From: Bacteroidota bacterium
Lineage (GTDB): Bacteria > Bacteroidota > Bacteroidia > UKL13-3
DNA length: 33,425 nt
Reading direction: 5' to 3'
NCBI GenBank assembly: GCA_030680835.1
Contig: JAUXUD010000072.1
Coordinates: forward strand, 1 to 33,425
The notes under the pieces were generated by a model. That model worked only from the letters and a program-made list of their open reading frames with translations, was not told the DNA's origin and did not search any database. Shown here piece by piece: positions 3,301 through 14,659 of this stretch (position 1 is its first letter; every line of letters starts with the position of its first letter). Both the position numbers and the translations under genes were made by a program.

Positions 3301-5336
3301 CTATATGAGGTGCTGTTTGTACAACCATTATCATCAGTTACGGTTAAATTCACGGTTTTACTTCCTGCACTTGCATATGAGAATGTATGCGGACCAACAG
3401 TGGCAGCAGGCACAGGCAATGCACCTGTTGCACTCCACGACCATGCATTGATAGTACCTGTTCCATTACTTGAAGTATTGGTTACAGTGTAACTATTTGG
3501 AGTTAAGCATTGGTCGAAATCGTTGATGGTAAAGGAGGCTGTTGGGTTTTGATTTACTGTTACAGTTAATACATTACTTATTTCCTCACATGCAATTGCA
3601 TTTAAAGTACTTATACTTACTCTGCGGTACTGAGTAGTTGATGTTAGAACTCCTGCATCATAAGTGATTAATGTTGCTCCGTCAATGGTGCTCCAGCTTG
3701 GTACGGCTATGTTGGTATTTACTTCCCATCTGTAAGTTATGGCTCCATCAGAGGTTGAAGCAGTAGTTTCGGTAAATGCTGCCGGATCAAATCCTGAACA
3801 GATGGTTTGTGAACCTGCAATGACTCCCGCAGTTAAATTATTTACAGTTACTGTCCGTTCTGTGCTGGTAGATTCACATGCTACCGAGTTCAGTGTGCTG
3901 ATTGTTACCCTGCGGTATTGTGCATCGGCTGTTAACACCCCTGCATTATACGTGGTTGACGTTGCTCCGCCTATGGTGCTCCAGCTTGGTGAACTGATAT
4001 TGGTATTTAATTCCCAACGATATGTTAGTGCTCCGTCACCGGTTGAACCAGTACTTTCAGTAAATGCAGCCGGGTCTCCGCCTGAGCAAATTGTTTGATC
4101 TGCAGCAATTACTCCTGATGTTAACCTATTTAAAGTTACAACCATCGCATCATTTACTGATGGACATGGGCCTGCAGGATCATTGGTGGTTAAAGTAAGG
4201 GTTACTGTACCGGCTGTTATATCGGCTCCGCTTGGGGTATAGACTGCTGTTAATGATGTAGCAACATCAAAAGTTCCGGTTCCGCTTGTGGTCCAGGTTG
4301 AACTTGATGCTCCACCTCCGATGCTACCTGCAAGTGTTACTGCAGGTGATGATGAACATACGGTCTGGTCTACGTTTGCACTTACTGTTGCTGCAGGATT
4401 GATGGTTACAACCATCGCATCATTTACTGATGGGCATGGGCCTGCAGGATCATTAGTAGTTAAAGTAAGAGTTACTGTACCGGCTGTAATATCCGCTCCG
4501 CTTGGAGTATAGACTGCTGTTAATGATGTAGCAACATCAAAAGTTCCGGTTCCGCTTGTGGTCCAGGTTGAACTGGATGCTCCACCTCCGATGCTGCCTG
4601 CCAGTGTTACTGCAGGTGATGATGAACATACGGTCTGGTCTGAATTTGCATTTACTGTTGCTGCTGAATTAATGGTTACAACCATTGCATCGACCGCTGC
4701 CCCACATGGGCCTGCTGGGTCATTGGTGGTTAAGGTAAGCGTTACGGTACCTGCTATTATATCTCCGGCCGATGGAGTATAAACTGCTGCCAATAAGGAA
4801 GTATTGTCAAATGATCCTGTGCCTGATGTTGTCCAAAGGCTGGACGTAATATCTGTACCTGACTTTGAGCCAGCTAGAGTCACTGACGGTGATGTTGAGC
4901 AAACCGTTTGGTCAGACCCTGCGTTTGCTACCGCATCATTCACTGTAATAGTAATATCGTTAGCGTTATCAGATCCAGTATATGCAACATCTGTACTAAC
5001 TACCCGTACACGATACCCAGAACCTGCAGTGTTTGGAAAAGTAACGCTAATTGTACCAGATGTGGCTGTGGACGCAACAGTTCCAATTATTGTTGGTGTT
5101 GTAAAATCTCCTGCAGCATCACTTAACTGTACGTTAAAATTGTTTCCTGCATTAAATGTAGGTCCACCTGCCGTAGTATAATCGACGGTTGTTGTACTTC
5201 CTCCACAGACACTTGTACCTGAAGCAGGATTTGTAGTTGAAATGGTTTGCCCAAAAACTCCCGTTGGAAGTATCAAAACCAAACAGCTTAAAACTACCAG
5301 TTTAAAGCGGTTAATGAGTAGAAAATTAGAATTCAT
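1..5336 (-). CDS. Giant secreted PKD-repeat adhesin (N-terminal part, runs off left edge)
   Basis: One open frame runs from an ATG at 5336 to the window edge with no stop, giving 1778 complete codons of an unfinished protein. Residues 1-29 are a signal peptide ending 'LPTGVFGQ'. Residues 30-125 resemble a Bacteroidota surface domain ('SVCGGST...FNAGNNF...GSGYRVRVVS'). About 130-399 are three 90-residue repeats, each with a GxDQTVC-type start. About 403-599 are two 97-residue modules with 'QTICSG' and 'QYRRV'. The remainder is roughly a dozen PKD-like domains with cores such as 'YAWNFGDGNT', 'SWNFGDGSP' and 'YLWDFGDAST'. The family is exported and displayed on the cell surface, usually by type IX secretion; the C-terminal sorting domain would lie left of the window. 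Role in adhesion or gliding is inferred. Plus-strand ORFs across this region are antisense shadows. Confidence 0.93.
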   Translation of the reverse strand, partial: MNSNFLLINRFKLVVLSCLVLILPTGVFGQTISTTNPASGTSVCGGSTTTVDYTTAGGPTFNAGNNFNVQLSDAAGDFTTPTIIGTVASTATSGTISVTFPNTAGSGYRVRVVSTDVAYTGSDNANDITITVNDAVANAGSDQTVCSTSPSVTLAGSKSGTDITSSLWTTSGTGSFDNTSLLAAVYTPSAGDIIAGTVTLTLTTNDPAGPCGAAVDAMVVTINSAATVNANSDQTVCSSSPAVTLAGSIGGGASSSTWTTSGTGTFDVATSLTAVYTPSGADITAGTVTLTLTTNDPAGPCPSVNDAMVVTINPAATVSANVDQTVCSSSPAVTLAGSIGGGASSSTWTTSGTGTFDVATSLTAVYTPSGADITAGTVTLTLTTNDPAGPCPSVNDAMVVTLNRLTSGVIAADQTICSGGDPAAFTESTGSTGDGALTYRWELNTNISSPSWSTIGGATSTTYNAGVLTADAQYRRVTISTLNSVACESTSTERTVTVNNLTAGVIAGSQTICSGFDPAAFTETTASTSDGAITYRWEVNTNIAVPSWSTIDGATLITYDAGVLTSTTQYRRVSISTLNAIACEEISNVLTVTVNQNPTASFTINDFDQCLTPNSYTVTNTSSNGTGTINAWSWSATGALPVPAATVGPHTFSYASAGSKTVNLTVTDDNGCTNSTSYSNNITVWSNPVAAFTINDNTQCLIGNSFTLTNASTNGSSAITTWAWSTTDATNATETGVGPHTTAYAAYGFKTVNLTVTDGNLCTNATSYTNNITVYQHPTASFATTESSGNTNNDNIICTGAVVHFTGAASTYGFGASSLSYQYKVDGSNAGAGSTSSLYEPVVTGITNPDDYLYTLLVTDNNGCTNETSPGTHIYVHPYPVPAISTPTIGTQGLYGVVLDNGNGGQLLCHGKVVFDNSSTIPSGSIVSYLWSFGDATTTTTTTTENVKHEYPVNYGINWFDAAFPNTRYTIGMTAVSNIGCSTSTAISRDIKNGPDAIINLTPSTSQPLATNSFPFGNGSQNRHPSFITSSLWNFGDGTSTTNQLFIPKVYTSAGDYRVHLITYTNTGCTDTTYMDVTVTPGASASFTYVPNSCANKDVAFTSTSVSASTYLWDFGDASTSTLANPTHTYAANGSYVVTLTINGSLVSAPQTIVVATTPSVGAITSTMSACGNTYTFSNVSTGQTLTYAWSFGGAAVFTPTAPSTTSSISGTYGSAAAATVDLVVTADARCPASATQLSFTSVAAGASVVAGVTVTATTDFCANTRTVNNTSTGGGTYELDIDGAGFASVGFPYALSGLSAGTHSVTIRVTNGSCITTATASFDVSVPTPSFSYSAATCGQAVAFTNTSTSTGTGTTTYSWNFNSGEGTSTSTSPSFTFATGGTKTVTLTATASSGCVASSTNAAVAVSATAGPIASFTSAVAPGTCANRIQFTNTSSGVGSTYAWNFGDGNTSTETSPLKGYGSAGPFTVTLTATNGACSSVATASVSISSSANGPAAGFTVNSTPQILASNNFNFFNTTQHMGFGWVTSYTWNFGDATTSTNTFIYGKTYASAGTYTVTLTAVSSNGCTDVTQQTVVVTAAASAAFSASTNNCTNRDVTFTNTSVSSSSNSWNFGDGSPASTSTSPTHTYAADGSYTVTLTINGSTSVSHTVVVATTPSVGAITSTMSACGNVYTFSNVSTGQTLTYAWSFGGAAVFTPTAPSTTSSISGTYGSAAAATVDLVVTADGRCPASATQLSFTSVAAGASVVAGVTVTATTDFCANTRTVNNTSTGGGT
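1504..1868 (-). repeat. First copy of the 1503-bp-period internal adhesin duplication
   Basis: This is the partner of bases 1-365, corresponding to about residues 1157-1278. It encodes a PKD-like block with 'TYAWSFGGAAVF' and 'VTATTDFCANTRTVNN'. The few differences from the other copy are scattered single bases, for example near 1518, 1624, 1653 and 1725. Confidence 0.9.
4139..4949 (-). repeat. Three tandem 270-bp (90-residue) adhesin repeats
   Basis: Units lie at about 4680-4949, 4409-4679 and 4139-4408. The last two are nearly identical in DNA, and the one nearest the N-terminus is more diverged. Each encodes a start like 'AGADQTVCSSSPAVTLAG', a 'WTTSGTGTFD' core and an end 'LTLTTNDPAGPC'. 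Similarity rising along the array suggests serial unequal duplication. The function is structural, probably a stalk of beta-sandwich domains. Confidence 0.88.
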
Positions 5337-5580
5337 AAAAGGTTGATTTATGTGAGATAAAGGTTAGTTTATTTAGATTATCACACTCTAAAATTATTTA
5401 TCTTAGGTAAGAGCATATAATAAATATGATAATTGGATGTGAAGCGTAAGTTGACCAGCGTCATTATTATATGAGTTGCTGAAAATGATGTCGCACTTAT
5501 TGAGCCATTATGGGAAATAATTAGCTAATTGTATCAAAATGAGAAAATTAGTGAACTGCCAAATTTGTGGAATAGCCTAT

Positions 5581-6804
5581 TTAAACCGGAATAATCAGGC
5601 GATGGTAAAGCTGTAGTAATTTAAGCGCTTCTGCTTCCCAGTTATATTCTAATTCAGACCAAAATATATTATTATTTGAAAAAGTTTCCTGCAATTCATT
5701 TGAAAATAAAATCTGCTCAATTGCCTGTGCAATTTCTTCCGGTTTTTTTAAATCAACACATAATCCTACTTCGCACTTTTGGTTCAATGACTGATAAATA
5801 TGTGTGTTGCAAAAAACAGAAGGCAAACCGATTGCCATATACTCGAATAATTTGCGTTCGTGAGATACAAGCATTGATTCCGGTTGATTTTTTAAACAAA
5901 TTCCAACCTTGCATGTTTTTGAAATTTCATAGGCTTCTTCCATTTCTAAAAATCCATGAAATATAACCAAAGCTTTTATGACATTCCAATGTTTATGCTT
6001 TTTAAAATCTTTGCCCGTCATTGCTCCAAAATATCCGATACAATGCAAATGCGTTTCAATCCCTTTTTGCTTTAAAATATAAAGGGCATCAAATAATTTA
6101 TCAATATCATAATACATGTCCCGGATCATACCTATATAAAACAAATTGTTTCCCGGTAACCCGCTTCTGTTACTTACTCTGTACTTTTTTAAAGCACCGG
6201 TATCCGCATAATTTTGTATGATTGAATATTGATTTTCTTTTACATAAAAATCTTTCAAAAATTCAGGATCAGCTATTACAACAATATAGTGCATAAAATA
6301 ACTACCCAACTGTAAAACAATCCGGTAACAAAATGCAAAAACAGATCTGAGCTTGGCCGGCAACCATGGTTTTAATAAAATATCCTGATAGGTATTTTCA
6401 TGAATATCATAAATTACTTTTTTGCCTGAAAGGGATAATACGATTCCAAATAAAATCATTTCAGCATCGTGAATATGATAGATGCTTGCATCGGTTTTAA
6501 TTGCTTCGCCAAATACCTTAAATATTGTATGAATAAACCTTATCAGGTAATTTCCGGGTTTTGGAATTCCTATCATGAAAACCCCATCTTTCATTCCGGT
6601 ATAATTTCCAATGCCTATAAAAGTCACATCATAAACCTTTGCCAAACTTCTGCATTCACGGTAAAATACGCGCGTGTCTGTTTGGCTGTGAACCGATGAA
6701 AAATGACAAACTTTTATCCTCGACAAAATTATAGTTTTACTAGAGTTAAACTTTGTAAAATCAAGTATAGCATTATTGAATTCATTAAAAAAGCCAGCGG
6801 CCAA
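5581..6804 (-). CDS. Glycosyltransferase, GT4-like
   Basis: This is a two-domain GT-B glycosyltransferase. The N-terminal half has 'IKVCHFSSVHSQTDTRVF' and the acceptor-side pattern 'HIHDAEMILFG...GKKVIYDIHE'. The C-terminal half has 'NLFYIGMIR' and a donor-binding block 'ESMLVSHERKLFEYMAIGLP', the E-x7-E-type region of retaining GT4 enzymes. It probably adds a sugar to a surface polysaccharide or glycoprotein; donor and acceptor cannot be told. It starts 33 bp after the acyl-CoA dehydrogenase gene, so co-transcription is likely. The start is uncertain: the frame opens with a TTG, there is no nearby ATG, and the first 26-28 residues do not look like the family. A TTG at 6726, just before 'SRIKVCHF', is an alternative. 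Confidence 0.85.
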   Translation of the reverse strand: MAAGFFNEFNNAILDFTKFNSSKTIILSRIKVCHFSSVHSQTDTRVFYRECRSLAKVYDVTFIGIGNYTGMKDGVFMIGIPKPGNYLIRFIHTIFKVFGEAIKTDASIYHIHDAEMILFGIVLSLSGKKVIYDIHENTYQDILLKPWLPAKLRSVFAFCYRIVLQLGSYFMHYIVVIADPEFLKDFYVKENQYSIIQNYADTGALKKYRVSNRSGLPGNNLFYIGMIRDMYYDIDKLFDALYILKQKGIETHLHCIGYFGAMTGKDFKKHKHWNVIKALVIFHGFLEMEEAYEISKTCKVGICLKNQPESMLVSHERKLFEYMAIGLPSVFCNTHIYQSLNQKCEVGLCVDLKKPEEIAQAIEQILFSNELQETFSNNNIFWSELEYNWEAEALKLLQLYHRLIIPV

Positions 6805-6837: not shown

Positions 6838-7983
6838 TTATTCTTTTAATACAGCGCGGGAAATAACCAGTTTCTGAATTTCACTTGTGCCCTCTCCTAT
6901 TGTGCAAAGCTTTGAATCGCGGTAGAATTTTTCAACAGGGAAGTCTTTTGTATAACCATAACCTCCAAATATCTGCACGGCTTCATTGGATGCCCAAACT
7001 GCTACTTCACTGGCATAATACTTTGCCATTGCGCTTTGTTTGTTTACGCTTTTATTTCTGTTCTTCAGATCGGCTGCTTGCAAAATCAGAAGTTCAGCTG
7101 CTTCAATACGTGTTGCCATATCTGCCAGCTTAAATGATATTCCCTGAAAATTGCTGATGGGCTGACCAAATTGATGGCGTTCTTTTGAGTATTTTAGTGC
7201 CGCTTCAAAAGCCCCTTTTGCAATTCCCAGCGCGAGTGATGCAATTGAAATTCTGCCTCCGTCTAATACTTTCATTGCTTGTTTAAAGCCTTCACCTACA
7301 TTTCCTAAGATATTTTCTTTGGGAACCCTGCAATCCTCAAAAATGAGTTCAGCGGTTTCGCTTGCACGCATGCCTAATTTATTCTCTTTTTTACCTCCTC
7401 TAAAACCGGGTGTTCCTCTCTCAACTACAAAAGTTGTTATCCCATTGCTATCCAATAAATCACCGGTTCGTGCCAAAACCACCACAATATTCCCGCTGAT
7501 TCCATGGGTAATCCAGTTTTTTGTTCCGTTTATTACCCATGAATCCCCGTCCTCTTTGGCTACACATTGCATACGCATGGCATCACTGCCGGTATTTGCT
7601 TCTGTCAATCCCCAGGCACCTATAGCTTCACCACTTGCAAGCTGGGGCAACCATCTTTTCTTTTGCTCCTCTTTGCCAAAATACATGATGTGTCCGGTAC
7701 ATAAACTGTTGTGTGCAGCCATGCTCAATCCAACCGATCCACAAACTTTCGACAATTCAACTATTGCAGTTACATACTCAAAATATCCAAAACCTGCGCC
7801 TCCATATGCTTCGGGCACCAAAACACCCAGTAAACCCAATTTACCCATTTCTTTAAACATCTCAGCAGGAAATGTTTGCGCTTCGTCCCAAAGCATTATA
7901 TTGGGTCTTATATGTTTCTCGGCAAAATCATGCACCATTTGTGCAATCATTTTTTGGTTTTCGGTCTTTTCGAAACTCAGCAT
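6838..7983 (-). CDS. Acyl-CoA dehydrogenase
   Basis: This is a 381-residue FAD-dependent acyl-CoA dehydrogenase, full length for the short/medium-chain family. It oxidises acyl-CoA to trans-2-enoyl-CoA in beta-oxidation or branched-chain amino acid breakdown and passes electrons to ETF. Visible signatures are '[14 protein letters not shown]' (FAD/substrate binding, about 122-135), '[12 protein letters not shown]' (269-280), '[20 protein letters not shown]' (339-358) and the catalytic glutamate in 'GEGTSEIQ' (E364). The ATG start is clear, with an AT-rich 102-bp leader. The substrate (butyryl-, isovaleryl- or other acyl-CoA) cannot be set from sequence alone. The glycosyltransferase gene lies close downstream. 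Confidence 0.95.
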
Positions 7984-8967: not shown

Positions 8968-9020
8968 TGAGTTATGAGTTATGAATTATGAATTATGAGT
9001 TATGAGTTATGAGTTATGAG
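8968..9020. repeat. Heptamer tandem repeat TGAGTTA/TGAATTA
   Basis: There are seven uninterrupted 7-bp units: TGAGTTA twice, TGAATTA twice and TGAGTTA three times, plus a partial TGAG. The array covers the last codons and stop of the RmlD-like gene (9000 onward) and the leader of the 53-codon ORF. Because the unit is not a multiple of three, copy-number change would alter the C-terminus of the reductase. Confidence 0.9.
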
Positions 9021-9917
9021 CTTAGTTAATTGTTGATCAAGTAGTGCAAGGCCTTCCTCAAAACTATGGGGTATATACCCAAGATCATGCATTGCTTTAT
9101 CGAGCCTGAATCCCGTTATTGGCGGGCGCTTGGCCGGTTGTTTGATCCCATCACTGCTTGCCAGGTTCAATAAACTTTTATCAAGCTTCCAAAAATCAGC
9201 AACACGGTATACCAAATCAAACACACTCATAAAATCATTGCCGCTGATATTGTAAATTCCATTAGCTTTTTTTTCAGCAATTAACAAACAACCCAAAGCC
9301 AGATCTTCAGCTAAAGTAGGTGTTCGAAACTGATCAGCAACCACATTAATCTGTTTGCCACTTTCCAACGAATTTTTAGCCCACAATACAATATTGCTCC
9401 TGCTCATATCGCTTACAATTCCATACACCAAAATGGTTCTCACAATCGACCAGTTATTGCTATATTCCATTACTGTCTTTTCTCCTTTCAACTTCGATTC
9501 ACCGTAGTAACTCAATGGCTTTGGAATTTCGCTTTCTGTTAGCGGACCATGCGTACCGTCAAAAATAAAATCGGTTGACAAATGAATAATATGGGTGTTA
9601 AATAGATTACAAGCCTCCACCAGGTACTTTACAGCTTGTATATTCAACAAGTCACAGGCTTCTCTTTCCGTTTCACATGCATCTACATTGGTCATGGCAG
9701 CCGTATTAATTACCGCATCGGGTTTGTGTTTGGCTACAATCAATTTTACTTCTTCGGCATTTGTTATATCAAGACTTTCGTATAAATAACCTGTTTGATC
9801 CGGGTACCGGTCGATACCCCGGGCCGTAGCGATGAGGTTTATATTGCTGCGTGCTTTTAATAAATCTACTAACTTTTGGCCCAGTAGGCCGTTGCTTCCC
9901 GTAATAAGAACTTTCAT
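9000..9917 (-). CDS. RmlD-like NAD(P)-dependent sugar-nucleotide reductase
   Basis: This is a 305-residue short-chain dehydrogenase of the dTDP-4-dehydrorhamnose reductase (RmlD/RfbD) group, which reduces the 4-keto sugar in nucleotide-sugar synthesis. The Rossmann glycine motif is at 6-13 ('TGSNGLLGQ'). The catalytic triad region is 'LSTDFIFDG' (113-121) and Y138xxxK142 in 'YYGESK'. The substrate-side segment 'VVADQFRTPTLAEDLA' is typical of RmlD. It may supply rhamnose or a related sugar for surface glycans, matching the glycosyltransferase in the same strand run, but no rmlA, B or C lies nearby, so the true substrate is open. The C-terminus ends within the heptamer repeat. Confidence 0.87.
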   Translation of the reverse strand: MKVLITGSNGLLGQKLVDLLKARSNINLIATARGIDRYPDQTGYLYESLDITNAEEVKLIVAKHKPDAVINTAAMTNVDACETEREACDLLNIQAVKYLVEACNLFNTHIIHLSTDFIFDGTHGPLTESEIPKPLSYYGESKLKGEKTVMEYSNNWSIVRTILVYGIVSDMSRSNIVLWAKNSLESGKQINVVADQFRTPTLAEDLALGCLLIAEKKANGIYNISGNDFMSVFDLVYRVADFWKLDKSLLNLASSDGIKQPAKRPPITGFRLDKAMHDLGYIPHSFEEGLALLDQQLTKLITHNS

Positions 9918-10101: not shown

Positions 10102-11481
10102 ATGAGAGGTGTATTAGCCGATATAGTTCCGGAAAAAGCAAGCAGAAATTTATATATCGAAACCTATGGTTGCGCCATGAATTTGGCTGACAGTGAGGTT
10201 GTAGCTTCTATAATGGCTGATAAAGGTTTTAAAACTACTCAGGACATTCAGGAAGCGGATGTGGTTTTTGTAAACACCTGTTCGATTCGCGATAATGCGG
10301 AGGCCCATGTTTGGGGACGTTTGCGTGAAATAAAACATCAAAAGAAAACCAACCCCGGAATGATTGTAGGTGTTTTGGGCTGTATGGCTGAACGCTTAAA
10401 AACTCAGTTTTTAGAGAAAGAACAAATTATTGATTTGGTTGTAGGGCCCGATGCATACAGGGATATTCCCCAATTGATTGCCCAGGTAGAAGAGGGTCAA
10501 AAGGCTGTAAATGTTTTGTTATCAAGGGAAGAAACATACGCCGAAATTACTCCGGTTAGACTGAGCAGCAATGGCGTTACCGCATTTATAAGCATTATGC
10601 GTGGCTGCGATAATATGTGTTCGTTTTGTGTGGTACCTTTTACCAGAGGACGTGAAAGAAGCCGTGATGCCGCATCCATTGTTCATGAAGCGACCGAACT
10701 CTATAAACAGGGTTATAAAGAAGTAACTTTATTGGGTCAGAATGTTGACTCCTATAAAGAACTCGATTCTGATGGAAATGTATTGAACACGTTTGCACAA
10801 TTGCTGGAACAAGTTGCCCTGATTGCCCCTGATTTGCGCATACGATTTAGCAGCTCACATCCAAAAGATATTACCGATGATGTGTTATATACCATTAAAA
10901 AATACAATAATATCTGCAACTATATCCATTATCCATTGCAGTCTGGTAACAGCAGAATTTTAGAATTGATGAACCGCACCTATGACAGCAATTGGTTCAA
11001 AACACGCCTGAATAAAATAAGAGAAGTATTACCCGATTGCGGGATTTCGAGCGATGTAATTACCGGATTTTGCAGCGAAACGGAAGCAGAGCATCAGGAC
11101 ACCCTTGAAATGTTTAAGTATGCAAATTTTAATTTTGCCTATATGTATCAGTATAGCGCAAGAGCAGGTACACTGGCCTCACGCAGGTATGTCGATGACA
11201 TTCCGGCTGTTGTAAAATTGCGCAGGCTCAATGAAATTATCACGGTCCAGAGTGAAATCAGTATGAAAAAAAACCAGGCTGAAATCGGCAAAATTCAAAC
11301 GGTTTTGATAGAAGGCTTATCTAAAAAATCGGATCAGGATTTTAGAGGAAGAAATGACCAGAACACCGTTGTTATTTTTCCAAAAGAACACTACAAAAAA
11401 GGGGATTATGTTCATGTACTTGTTGAAAAATGTACACAAACAAGTCTCATTGGTAAAGTTGTTGAACAAGTGAAATTTTAA
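10102..11481 (+). CDS. miaB: tRNA-2-methylthio-N6-dimethylallyladenosine synthase MiaB
   Basis: This 459-residue radical-SAM methylthiotransferase converts i6A37 to ms2i6A37 in tRNAs that read codons starting with U. The N-terminal UPF0004 domain has the three cysteines of the auxiliary cluster: C24 ('YGCAMN'), C60 ('NTCSIR') and C94 ('LGCMAE'). The radical-SAM triad is C169-x3-C173-x2-C176 in '[10 protein letters not shown]', followed by '[10 protein letters not shown]'. '[10 protein letters not shown]' is typical of MiaB rather than MtaB or RimO. The C-terminal TRAM domain contains 'LIEGLSKKS...GRNDQN'. It is the first gene of a three-gene operon, and its pairing with a sigma-54 activator is common in Bacteroidota. 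Confidence 0.97.
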
Positions 11482-11509: not shown

Positions 11510-12802
11510 ATGCAGCCCGATACTTTTTTCAATACATGGGATTCCTTTTTGTACAATTATCATTTGTATTACAGAAACCTCAGTCAAAAAGGTAAAGAAC
11601 GTTTCATGAAAAGGGTTGAATCTGTTTTAAACAATACCATTATTATCGGCAAGGAAGAACTGGAACTCAATGAACAAATTGAGATACTGGTTGTTGCCAA
11701 CTTGGTTCAGCTTACCTTTGGATTAAAACAATTCTGGTTATATGGTTACGAATACATTTATATATATCCGGATGAATTCACGATTGAGGCAACCGGTCAA
11801 ACAGTAGGAGGTTCAACCTATAACAATAAAATCATTTCATTATCCTGGAAAAATTTTGCACTCGACCATTTAAGACCCAAGGATGGGAAAAATATAAGTT
11901 TCGCGCAATATGCCCTTGCGCTGATAAGAACAGTTTTAAACGGGAAAAGATTTGACTTGTCTTTTGGCAGTTACCTGGATACCTGGTTTGGAATAATTAA
12001 AAAAGAGAGTGCCAATAAATCAGACATGGAAGCGGTTAATAACCTGTCAAACAACAACGATGATCTGGCCTTTGTATTTGCGAAATGTACTGAATTATTT
12101 TTTGAAAAACCCGAGCTGTTTAAAAAAGAATTACCTTCCTCCTATGCACATTTTTGCCTGCTATTAAACCAGGATCCCCTGAATATAACAGAAGATTATG
12201 CATATAATAGAAAACGCCTGAATAAAGTTACGCTGAAAGAACCCCTTCCTCCCTACATAACCCGAAATTATAAATACAAAACCTGGCACTGGAGCTATAA
12301 CCTGGCCTTTTTCGGCTTTGCCATCTGCCCCATGATATTGTATTTTTTGACAGACAACATTCTCATAAACCCACATCAAATATTAACTACAATCATTGCA
12401 ATCGGGATTGTTTTTGCAGTAGTATTTTATTTCCCACTCAAAAAAGCAGGCTTATACAACAATCCTGTTTTGCTTTTAATGAATAGCCTGTTCGGTATTT
12501 CACCCTGTATGATAACCCTTTACTTAATTTTAAACAGTATGTATGGTTATCCTTCTACCAGTCAGATTTCACGACATAAAATTGCGAGTTACTACCAGAC
12601 CCATTCCATTAGATACGCAAATGGAATTTCAACAACTTTTAATTTCAGCGATAGCTTTTTAACGGATTACCCGAAAGCAAGAACATTTGAAACATTTGAG
12701 CAACAAACTTTAAGGGTAGCTACTTTGTTTAATGGAGTTGAATACGAAATTCGAACCGGTTTACTCGGACTTCCCATATTGATAAACAGAAAATTATACT
12801 AA
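11510..12802 (+). CDS. MtfA-related (M90-like) membrane protein lacking the HExxH motif
   Basis: The 430-residue protein resembles the MtfA/M90 zinc-peptidase family in its N-terminal part: 'LSQKGKERFMKRVESVL' (24-40), 'VVANLVQLTFGL' (61-72), 'YEYIYIYPDEF' (80-90) and 'STYNNKIISLSWKNF' (102-116). In active members a 'HEFAHAL' zinc motif follows; here the aligned residues 132-138 read AQYALAL, so both His ligands and the Glu are missing. Three hydrophobic segments follow at about 262-282, 290-309 and 318-342, then a soluble C-terminus. It is therefore probably a non-catalytic membrane protein, perhaps a binding or scaffold factor. It lies 28 bp after miaB, and its stop overlaps the next start (TAATG). 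Confidence 0.72.
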   Translation: MQPDTFFNTWDSFLYNYHLYYRNLSQKGKERFMKRVESVLNNTIIIGKEELELNEQIEILVVANLVQLTFGLKQFWLYGYEYIYIYPDEFTIEATGQTVGGSTYNNKIISLSWKNFALDHLRPKDGKNISFAQYALALIRTVLNGKRFDLSFGSYLDTWFGIIKKESANKSDMEAVNNLSNNNDDLAFVFAKCTELFFEKPELFKKELPSSYAHFCLLLNQDPLNITEDYAYNRKRLNKVTLKEPLPPYITRNYKYKTWHWSYNLAFFGFAICPMILYFLTDNILINPHQILTTIIAIGIVFAVVFYFPLKKAGLYNNPVLLLMNSLFGISPCMITLYLILNSMYGYPSTSQISRHKIASYYQTHSIRYANGISTTFNFSDSFLTDYPKARTFETFEQQTLRVATLFNGVEYEIRTGLLGLPILINRKLY

Positions 12803-14040
12803 TGATGCACATACAGGATATTAAACAACGCTTTGAAATAATCGGAAACTCACCCCTATTAAATATTGCATTGGAAACCGCTGTTAAAGTGTCAACAACC
12901 GACATAACTGTGTTGATTAACGGTGAAAGCGGAGTTGGAAAAGAAGCTTTTTCAAAAATTATTCATGGTTTAAGCAATCGTAAACATGGCCCATTTATAG
13001 CAGTTAACTGTGGTGCCATTCCTGAAGGAACCATCGACAGTGAATTATTTGGGCATGAAAAAGGCTCATTTACCGGAGCGCATGATTTGCGAAAAGGTTA
13101 TTTTGAAACGGTAAGCAGTGGTACTATTTTTTTGGATGAAATTGGTGAATTGCCTTTAGAAACCCAGGCCCGCTTGTTACGGATTTTGGAGAGTGGCGAA
13201 TTTATTAAAGTAGGTTCAAGCAAGGTGCAAAAAACAGATGTGCGGATTATCGCCGCATCAAATAAAGATTTATTGGAACTTGCTGCCAATGGAAGGTTTC
13301 GGGAAGATTTGTATTACCGCCTGTCTACAGTTCCCATAAAAGTACCGCCATTGCGTGAACGGAAGGAAGACATTCATTTGTTATTCCGGAAGTTCAGTGC
13401 CGATTTTGCTGAAAAATATCATTCAAAACCTGTAGTGCTTGAACCCGATGCCCTTAATTTATTGCAGAATTACCGCTGGCCCGGAAACATCAGGCAGTTA
13501 AAAAATATCGCCGAACAATTGTCGGTTTTGGATGAAGATAAGGTTGTGAACGGGAAAGAATTATCCCGTGTATTGCCAGCAGAAAGGTCGGCATTGCCAA
13601 TGTTGATGGGTAACGGCCCCCTTGAACAACAATTTAGTGAGCGTGATATTTTTTATAAGGTATTATACGATTTACGAAAAGATTTAAGCGATTTAAAATC
13701 CATCGTATTCGACATGATGCAGGGAAACAATGCAAATAATATTCCAAAACAGGAAAGTACCTTTACCCATCATTTTAGCTCGCACGACCGGGAAGCAAAT
13801 GCCGCCCAGCCCAATATTGTACCCTTATCAAATACTGCTGTTCCTTCGGCCAATAATCAAATTATCGATATCACCGAAGCACAAAGCGAACCGGAATCCT
13901 TAAGTCTGGAAAGCAAAGAAATTGAGCTGATCACCAAATCTCTTAAAAAGCATCATGGCAAACGCAAAAAAGCTGCACAGGAACTTGGGATTTCGGAAAG
14001 GACGCTTTACAGGAAAATTAAACAGTACGACCTGGAGTAA
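12802..14040 (+). CDS. Sigma-54-dependent transcriptional activator without receiver domain
   Basis: This 412-residue bacterial enhancer-binding protein starts almost directly with the AAA+ domain. Walker A is 'GESGVGKE' (41-48), the sigma-54 contact loop is 'GSFTGA' (88-93), Walker B is 'FLDEIGE' (110-116) and the arginine-finger region is 'FREDLYYRL' (166-174). After a variable linker, a Fis-type helix-turn-helix fills about 375-412 ('HGKRKKAAQELGISERTLYRK'). It uses ATP to open RpoN promoters. With no receiver or sensor domain, activity must be controlled by level, partner or another input; the overlapping membrane protein gene is a candidate. The start overlaps the previous stop; a second ATG at 12805 is equally possible. 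Confidence 0.94.
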   Translation: MMHIQDIKQRFEIIGNSPLLNIALETAVKVSTTDITVLINGESGVGKEAFSKIIHGLSNRKHGPFIAVNCGAIPEGTIDSELFGHEKGSFTGAHDLRKGYFETVSSGTIFLDEIGELPLETQARLLRILESGEFIKVGSSKVQKTDVRIIAASNKDLLELAANGRFREDLYYRLSTVPIKVPPLRERKEDIHLLFRKFSADFAEKYHSKPVVLEPDALNLLQNYRWPGNIRQLKNIAEQLSVLDEDKVVNGKELSRVLPAERSALPMLMGNGPLEQQFSERDIFYKVLYDLRKDLSDLKSIVFDMMQGNNANNIPKQESTFTHHFSSHDREANAAQPNIVPLSNTAVPSANNQIIDITEAQSEPESLSLESKEIELITKSLKKHHGKRKKAAQELGISERTLYRKIKQYDLE

Positions 14041-14047
14041 GCCTTAA

Positions 14048-14175
14048 GAAGCGAGATTTCGAGAGGTGAGAAACGAGACAAGAAATAAGTATGTGATAGG
14101 AATGAGAGGTTGAAATGAAAATCCAGATAAGAATTTTTATTAGTCTCGTCTCTCGATTCTCACTATCTCGATTCT
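14048..14175. repeat. Imperfect inverted repeat of 'cgaga' words between convergent genes
   Basis: Arms at 14048-14081 and 14142-14175 match as reverse complements at about 25 of 34 positions, each made of degenerate repeats of the words cgaga, tcgag and gtgag. It separates the sigma-54 activator gene from the convergent thioredoxin-like gene, so the transcript could fold into a terminator-like hairpin from either side. It could also be a non-coding repeat element. Confidence 0.6.
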
Positions 14176-14188
14176 GGATTTCCCGATT

Positions 14189-14659
14189 CTATTTCTTTCC
14201 GTAGAATTTTTGTTTGATATCAGCTAAAACATTAGCCATCTGCTCTTCGTTTTTGTAACCAACCACAACTTCAGATTTTTTGGCTTTCGGGAATATAAAA
14301 ACAGTTGTTGGATATCCCGAAATCTGGTGATTACTGATGGCTCCGGCCAGTTGTTCACCGGTATATGATTTTCCTTCAAAAGTATACATTACCCCTGTAA
14401 TTTCAGGATTGAACTTAATGGCAATAAAATCCTTGTTTACCAAATCAGAAACTCTTGGCTTTGCATATGCATCCCTGTCCATCCGTTTGCACCAGCCACA
14501 CCAGTCGGTATATACATCAACCAGCATTATTTTATTTTTCTTTTTGGCCAGCTCATAACCTTTATTAAAATCAACCCATTTAATCTCTTCAGCTGTTTTA
14601 AATGAAGTTGCAAACAAGGTTACCACAGACAGTAATAGTATTTTGAATTTATTGTTCAT
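14189..14659 (-). CDS. Periplasmic thioredoxin-like protein (CGWC)
   Basis: The protein has 156 residues, with an N-terminal signal sequence at about 1-20 ('FKILLLSVVTLFATSF') and then one thioredoxin fold. The redox motif is C54-G-W-C57 in 'YTDWCGWCKRM' and the cis-proline is P117 in 'GYPTTVF'. This motif and the short 'DFIAIKFN' strand fit the thioredoxin_7/DUF255-like group, which reduces or shuffles disulfides in the envelope. It may be a lipid-free periplasmic protein, since no lipobox is seen. It is a single gene, convergent with the sigma-54 activator. Partner proteins are unknown. Confidence 0.88.
   Translation of the reverse strand: MNNKFKILLLSVVTLFATSFKTAEEIKWVDFNKGYELAKKKNKIMLVDVYTDWCGWCKRMDRDAYAKPRVSDLVNKDFIAIKFNPEITGVMYTFEGKSYTGEQLAGAISNHQISGYPTTVFIFPKAKKSEVVVGYKNEEQMANVLADIKQKFYGKK

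Follow-up and report, generated by a model that had tools for sequence, protein, structure and literature searches.

In our study, an M90 (MtfA-type) peptidase homologue without the HExxH motif was found to be encoded between miaB and the gene of a sigma-54 activator in a contig of a Bacteroidota bacterium, and proteins of the same form were found in 28 genomes of one GTDB family. The whole stretch of 33,425 nucleotides that was analysed is called the window, and the protein is called pseudo-M90. We tentatively prefer the view that pseudo-M90 is a non-catalytic membrane protein that acts, most likely, as the partner of the activator in trans. The coordinates of the gene, its parts and its neighbours are given in Table 1. 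As the preliminary description had stated, the gene lies between miaB and the activator gene, and its stop overlaps the activator start; all three genes are on the + strand, and the overlap was found to be a single base, common to the TAA stop (12800-12802) and the ATG at 12802. The activator was also found to be receiver-less as described, its AAA+ domain starting at residue 13 with no receiver or other N-terminal domain ahead of it in the Pfam search. The genome of the window contained one rpoN match, and pseudo-M90 was its sole match to PF06167 at E up to 0.001.

Table 1. Positions of the pseudo-M90 gene, its parts and its neighbours in the window.
Feature	Positions	Strand	Remarks
miaB, upstream neighbour	10102..11481	+	UPF0004, Radical_SAM and TRAM; named by family and domain order
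pseudo-M90 gene	11510..12802	+	430 aa; MtfA relative without zinc site, three C-terminal hydrophobic spans
M90 domain, residues 5-215	11522..12154	+	Pfam PF06167; PDB MtfA chains 9srw_E and 3dl1_A by profile
AQYAL, residues 132-136	11903..11917	+	HExxH position of M90 peptidases, by alignment
E195	12092..12094	+	aligned to third-zinc-ligand position; kept in 23/25 aligned orthologues
Three hydrophobic spans	12311..12529	+	maxima at residues 268-286, 291-309 and 322-340 (hydropathy scan)
C-terminal tail domain, residues 341-430	12530..12799	+	predicted to face outward; without a Pfam match above the cut-off
TAATG stop/start overlap, pseudo-M90/activator	12800..12804	+	sequence
Sigma-54 activator	12802..14040	+	AAA+ from residue 13, Fis-type HTH at end; without regulatory domain (Pfam)

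Judged from sequence profiles, pseudo-M90 is an M90 homologue, in agreement with the preliminary description. The match to Pfam PF06167 (Peptidase_M90) reached 60.3 bits against a cut-off of 26.2, and the PDB MtfA chains (two distinct sequences) were matched at a best E of 1.8e-6 by sequence alone and of 2.4e-8 with the orthologue profile. The score against the NCBIfam MtfA equivalog model was 40 bits, below the cut-off of 400. AlphaFold2, run on a two-sequence alignment, gave a mean pLDDT of 35.4, so the homology is based on the profiles. The HEFAH of the aligned M90 proteins corresponds to A132-Q133-Y134-A135-L136, which bears out the claimed loss of HExxH at the zinc site, and from the motif we infer that catalysis has been lost. 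E195 aligns with the 'SEYFF' Glu of MtfA from the PDB, a residue which we take to be the third zinc ligand of M90; it is substituted by Val in two of the 25 orthologues (L022 and L028). The H214, H260 and H356 residues were invariant in all 25.

When the 64 genomes of the GTDB family were searched for relatives, 36 contained matches and 28 of these held the operon form. The frame was whole or nearly whole, with no internal stop, in 26 of the 28; the copy of G003 was split over two contigs and that of G010 was cut by a contig end. HExxH was found in the operon form of none of the 28 genomes, and the motif loss is thus lineage-wide by the alignment check that had been proposed. The 25 operon copies in the alignment (A1) contained 13 different five-letter strings at the HExxH position, and the copies outside it contained AQYAL (L004 and L029) or AQYAQ (L006). 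The other readable M90 proteins of the family kept HExxH in 16 of 16 cases, 12 with C-terminal spans and four short; L046, whose frame was not found, was left out of the counts. Both kinds of M90 protein were present in nine genomes (G001, G005, G007, G035, G037, G039, G040, G044, and G054), and the genome of the window contained the operon form only. In a tree of 97 M90 domains made by a quick method, the 27 operon copies long enough to be included were placed on one side of a branch with an SH-aLRT of 100; M90 hits of 70 bits or less were left out of this tree, among them L078, a fragment that begins downstream of the motif. By sequence, the clade without HExxH is a pseudo-peptidase clade of M90. 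The 105 pattern matches in viral contigs contained no relative of pseudo-M90, and the scan of genome contigs gave one relative, L032, identical in sequence to L003.

The whole-gene dN/dS ranged from 0.028 to 0.194 in eight of ten pairs, the other two being saturated; the activator gave values from 0.004 to 0.051 in those eight pairs. Pseudo-M90 exceeded the activator 2.6- to 27-fold in this ratio in seven pairs, and the two were equal in the eighth, L012-L015 (0.028 and 0.029). The M90 domain had a lower dN/dS than the spans and tail in 8/8 pairs. Pseudo-M90 is constrained yet faster-evolving than its neighbour genes, and its distances follow the species. The copy in the window is not a lone decayed gene, a case that the preliminary description had allowed for and that was ruled out by the 28 genomes and the low dN/dS (0.03-0.19 in eight pairs).

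The three spans were located as hydropathy maxima in 19-residue windows. At the threshold used, 12 of 27 operon proteins showed two C-terminal spans only, and in four proteins from two other genera (L017, L022, L025, and L028) a further N-terminal span may exist if the upstream start is right. Over the 25 orthologues, the 16 residues ahead of span 1 contained 3.2 Lys plus Arg on average, and the later stretches contained 0.4 (nine residues, from span 1 to span 2), 1.8 (11 residues, from span 2 to span 3) and 1.4 (17 residues behind span 3). This simple charge pattern fits a predicted topology in which the M90 domain is cytosolic and the tail faces outward (N-in/C-out). Neither the tail of the pseudo-M90 copy in the window nor eight lone tails gave a Pfam match above the cut-off. 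The preliminary description had said that the protein gained three membrane segments; their presence was supported by hydropathy but not their gain, since relatives bearing HExxH have both the spans and the tail. Acquisition of the spans along with the motif loss was ruled out by the alignments with the HEFAH paralogues and the HExxH relatives. As M90 proteins with HExxH share the full architecture, the spans and tail are ancestral and probably preceded the zinc-site loss; the lineage-specific traits are this loss and the place in the operon.

In a class sample of 296 genomes, 114 matched the operon profile. The better matches of those 114 genomes were read, and matches that were not fetched were dropped before the counts. 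Fifty-four M90 domains from outside the family were placed in the tree; the HExxH pattern was present in 51 and absent from L091, L092, and L098, and a tail domain was detectable in 14 of the 54 proteins. An alignment of the operon clade with twelve of the fourteen tailed M90 proteins spanned 416 columns (probability 100, E 2.4e-79), and one with ten of the family's HEFAH paralogues spanned 337 columns and reached as far as the third span. L098 was grouped with a HELAH protein, L066 (SH-aLRT 97), which implies that HExxH was lost at least two times in the membrane-tailed architecture; L091 and L092, on very long branches, probably had a separate loss. The three proteins without HExxH (L098:4995-6302, L091:4872-6305, and L092:4413-5867) contain hydrophobic C-terminal parts, and the gene of L091 lies, by reading, behind a cluster resembling ribosomal protein genes and rpoA. 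The tail domain also exists as a separate protein, encoded by frames of 184-222 aa (E 9.6e-22 in a comparison with nine of these); two such frames (L069/L079 and L076) lie next to an M90 gene. These stand-alone tails, in L080-L088, L069:2790-3368, and L076:2249-2833, are related to the C-terminal part of pseudo-M90. In 98 further loci with an M90 gene or a lone tail gene, which represent about 81 distinct places with flanks of 1.5-5 kb, shorter at contig ends, no sigma-54 activator was found, and none lies near the genes of L098, L091 and L092. A DUF255-type gene was seen by motif near four of the 14 tailed HExxH proteins (L185, L186, L193, and L196), and in three of those four an LEA_2-like gene was also near by motif, with a Pfam check in L185 only.

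Within the family, the gene stays beside the activator, as the neighbourhood check proposed earlier found in 27 of 27 testable loci: the activator lies directly 3' with a spacing of -23 to +9 bp, the start codons having been chosen by rule. G010 was untestable because of a contig end, and L025, in which the activator frame is broken, was counted as having the activator downstream. The miaB gene lies directly 5' in 26 of 27 testable loci, the exception being G054, where the two are about 1.56 kb apart; G018, which starts at a contig end, is outside this count. Twenty of the 36 gene-less genomes of the family were fetched. In 18 of them miaB and the activator were separated by a gap of 2-139 bp, and in the other two the slot was filled, each filler overlapping the activator start. 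The filler of G062 is a Fic-domain gene (L135:2400-3749; PF02661, 84.9 bits) and that of G046 encodes a 119-aa protein without a Pfam match. In G046 (L137:3781-7280) the order was miaB, the 119-aa protein, the activator, an LptE-like gene (5399-5914) and a SecG-like gene (6921-7280), the last two by reading; the LptE match of the window's genome lies on another contig. Among the 16 gene-less genomes that were not fetched, the best miaB and activator matches of five (G031-G034 and G052) lie on different contigs, so the miaB-activator pair is not universal. Of the 64 genomes, 58 had a strong activator match (E of at most 6.4e-65), five had a weak one, which may represent another activator, and one had none. 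As the operon form was not found in 36 of the 64, some of them incomplete, the activator does not need pseudo-M90.

On a tree of miaB and the activator from 44 genomes, the presence of the gene requires nine changes, seven of them forced by the starred branches, and gain and loss are not told apart by it. The single clade, the single place and the species-like distances favour, at the level of sequence, one gain followed by many losses. A single event, inherited since, probably placed all copies beside the activator, and the 27 linked loci are therefore not independent cases. The full-slot locus L024 and the empty-slot locus L125 were 97.6 percent alike upstream and 93.1 percent alike downstream. 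L124, L125, and L126 are empty alleles with a nearly identical short junction and are close relatives of the full L024; the shared junction suggests allele exchange by recombination, and close relatives may have swapped full slots for empty ones or vice versa.

We also compared the evolution of pseudo-M90 with that of the activator. In a mirror-tree analysis of 23 of the 28 genomes with miaB as the sole control, the partial correlation was 0.83, and 0 of 2000 permutations were as high. When rpoN and lptE were added as controls, it was 0.35 (0 of 1000 permutations as high) in 21 of the 23 genomes, G013 having no lptE match and the rpoN of G016 being cut. The activator linker alone gave 0.47 (0/1000) and the M90 domain against the AAA+ domain gave 0.10 (175 of 1000 permutations as high). 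The control pairs lptE/activator and rpoN/activator gave 0.35 and 0.60, both at 0/1000, and the distance correlations of pseudo-M90 were 0.88 with the activator, 0.86 with rpoN and 0.82 with lptE. As the control genes match or pass 0.35, the signal singles nothing out and is not support for a link; a mirror-tree link between pseudo-M90 and the activator was dropped. In at least three of the five comparisons made, 27 of the 412 activator positions differed with the absence of the gene. The fast linker (residues 263-366) contained 24 of the 27, and these changes formed no clear surface. The sigma-54 consensus with up to two mismatches gave 22 matches in the scan against 20.7 expected, with no + strand match from 3.5 to 12.9 kb, and the sigma-70 scan gave 16 against 15.0 in shuffles.

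The activator has no regulatory domain, so its control probably comes from elsewhere, and the examples of PspA-PspF and MtfA-Mlc make pseudo-M90 a good candidate for a partner that would hold the activator at the membrane. Under this preferred reading, an M90 clade would have lost its zinc site and come to lie between miaB and a sensor-less activator, and purifying selection would then have kept pseudo-M90 as a non-catalytic membrane protein. The dead, cytosolic M90 domain would bind the activator and hold it inactive or off DNA, and the three spans and the outward tail would relay an envelope signal that frees it. The binding, the direction of control and any signal are parts of the model that we infer. 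The clean absence of the gene in many relatives in which miaB and the activator are retained, and the use of the slot by unrelated genes, speak against a partner of the activator. These observations would suit a selected non-catalytic membrane protein with an envelope or cytosolic target of its own, which shares the operon because the junction is transcribed and tolerates insertions. We regard this as nearly as probable as the partner reading, given that the slot also holds the Fic gene and the 119-aa protein, that many relatives cleanly lack the gene and their activators bear no clear mark of its absence, that the co-evolution signal is not specific, and that the 98 loci (about 81 places) with other M90 or lone tail genes contained no activator. 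However, the pseudo-M90 stop and the activator start are -23 to +9 bp apart in 27/27 testable loci, and the search of the 64 family genomes found the operon form at no other place; neither result favours an independent target.

Pseudo-M90 could also still be an enzyme or a metal protein in which E195, H214, H260 and H356 replace HExxH, as the presence of E195 in 23/25 and of the three His in 25/25 orthologues might indicate. We consider this improbable. H260 is placed at the edge of the membrane and H356 in the tail, which is predicted to face outward; the HEFAH paralogues likewise have His at the position of H214; and because His-Trp 260-261 is common, and His 356 occurs in some cases, among relatives with their own HExxH, these residues need no role in a replacement site. 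A decaying pseudogene is far less credible still: its absence in close relatives would suit decay, but 26 of the 28 frames are whole or nearly so without an internal stop, the dN/dS is 0.03-0.19 and the distances follow the species.

Pseudo-M90 resembles MtfA in the M90 domain and in the Glu at the third-ligand position, and differs from it in having no HExxH and in having the spans and tail beyond the 267-287 aa of the PDB MtfA chains. The tailed HExxH proteins of Bacteroidia, an unnamed family (L051-L062, L065, and L073), have the same domain order as pseudo-M90, whereas they keep HExxH (by pattern) and their flanks are without the activator. MtfA is described as the Mlc titration factor and itself acts on Mlc, a transcriptional regulator (PMC5798407), which provides a precedent in the M90 family for action on a DNA-binding regulator. 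PspF is described as an activator without a regulatory domain that is controlled in trans by the membrane-linked PspA, a predicted coiled-coil protein (PMC3128695); the likeness of pseudo-M90 to PspA would be one of way of working. With the inactive metallopeptidase homologues, pseudo-M90 shares the loss of the catalytic motif and the retention of homology, and the known examples in a 2024 review are described as working via protein-protein interactions (PMC11266112). A term search of the main text of that review gave no mention of M90 or MtfA. In the open-licence PMC literature, no account of M90 proteins without HExxH was found, nor a paper on pseudoprotease and MtfA together, nor one with all the terms for sigma-54/RpoN enhancer-binding in Bacteroidetes.

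Should pseudo-M90 control the activator, it would represent the conversion of a peptidase into a membrane sensor that serves sigma-54 transcription in Bacteroidia. The fuller model, in which a dead cytosolic M90 domain binds a sensor-less AAA+ activator and the outward tail, derived from membrane-bound M90 peptidases, senses the envelope, would be a new kind of one-protein transmembrane control, and we consider it unlikely though worth stating. Relatives with and without the gene, which otherwise have the same miaB-activator pair, offer a ready natural comparison. A survey of 2013 listed HExxH in 100 percent of PF06167 members (PMC3650047), and even without control of the activator, the lineage-wide loss of HExxH was found in that family. 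The analysis also exposed a membrane tail domain without a Pfam match that occurs fused to M90, beside M90 and alone.

Several repeats were seen in the window. The purine-rich stretch at 14036-14190, behind the activator gene, has eight weaker matches in the genome and is a dispersed repeat. A tandem repeat with a 270-base unit in 2.4 copies was present at 4135-4789, and the heptamer TGAGTTA was repeated 7.6 times at 8968-9020, across the 3' end of an RmlD-type gene (9000-9917).
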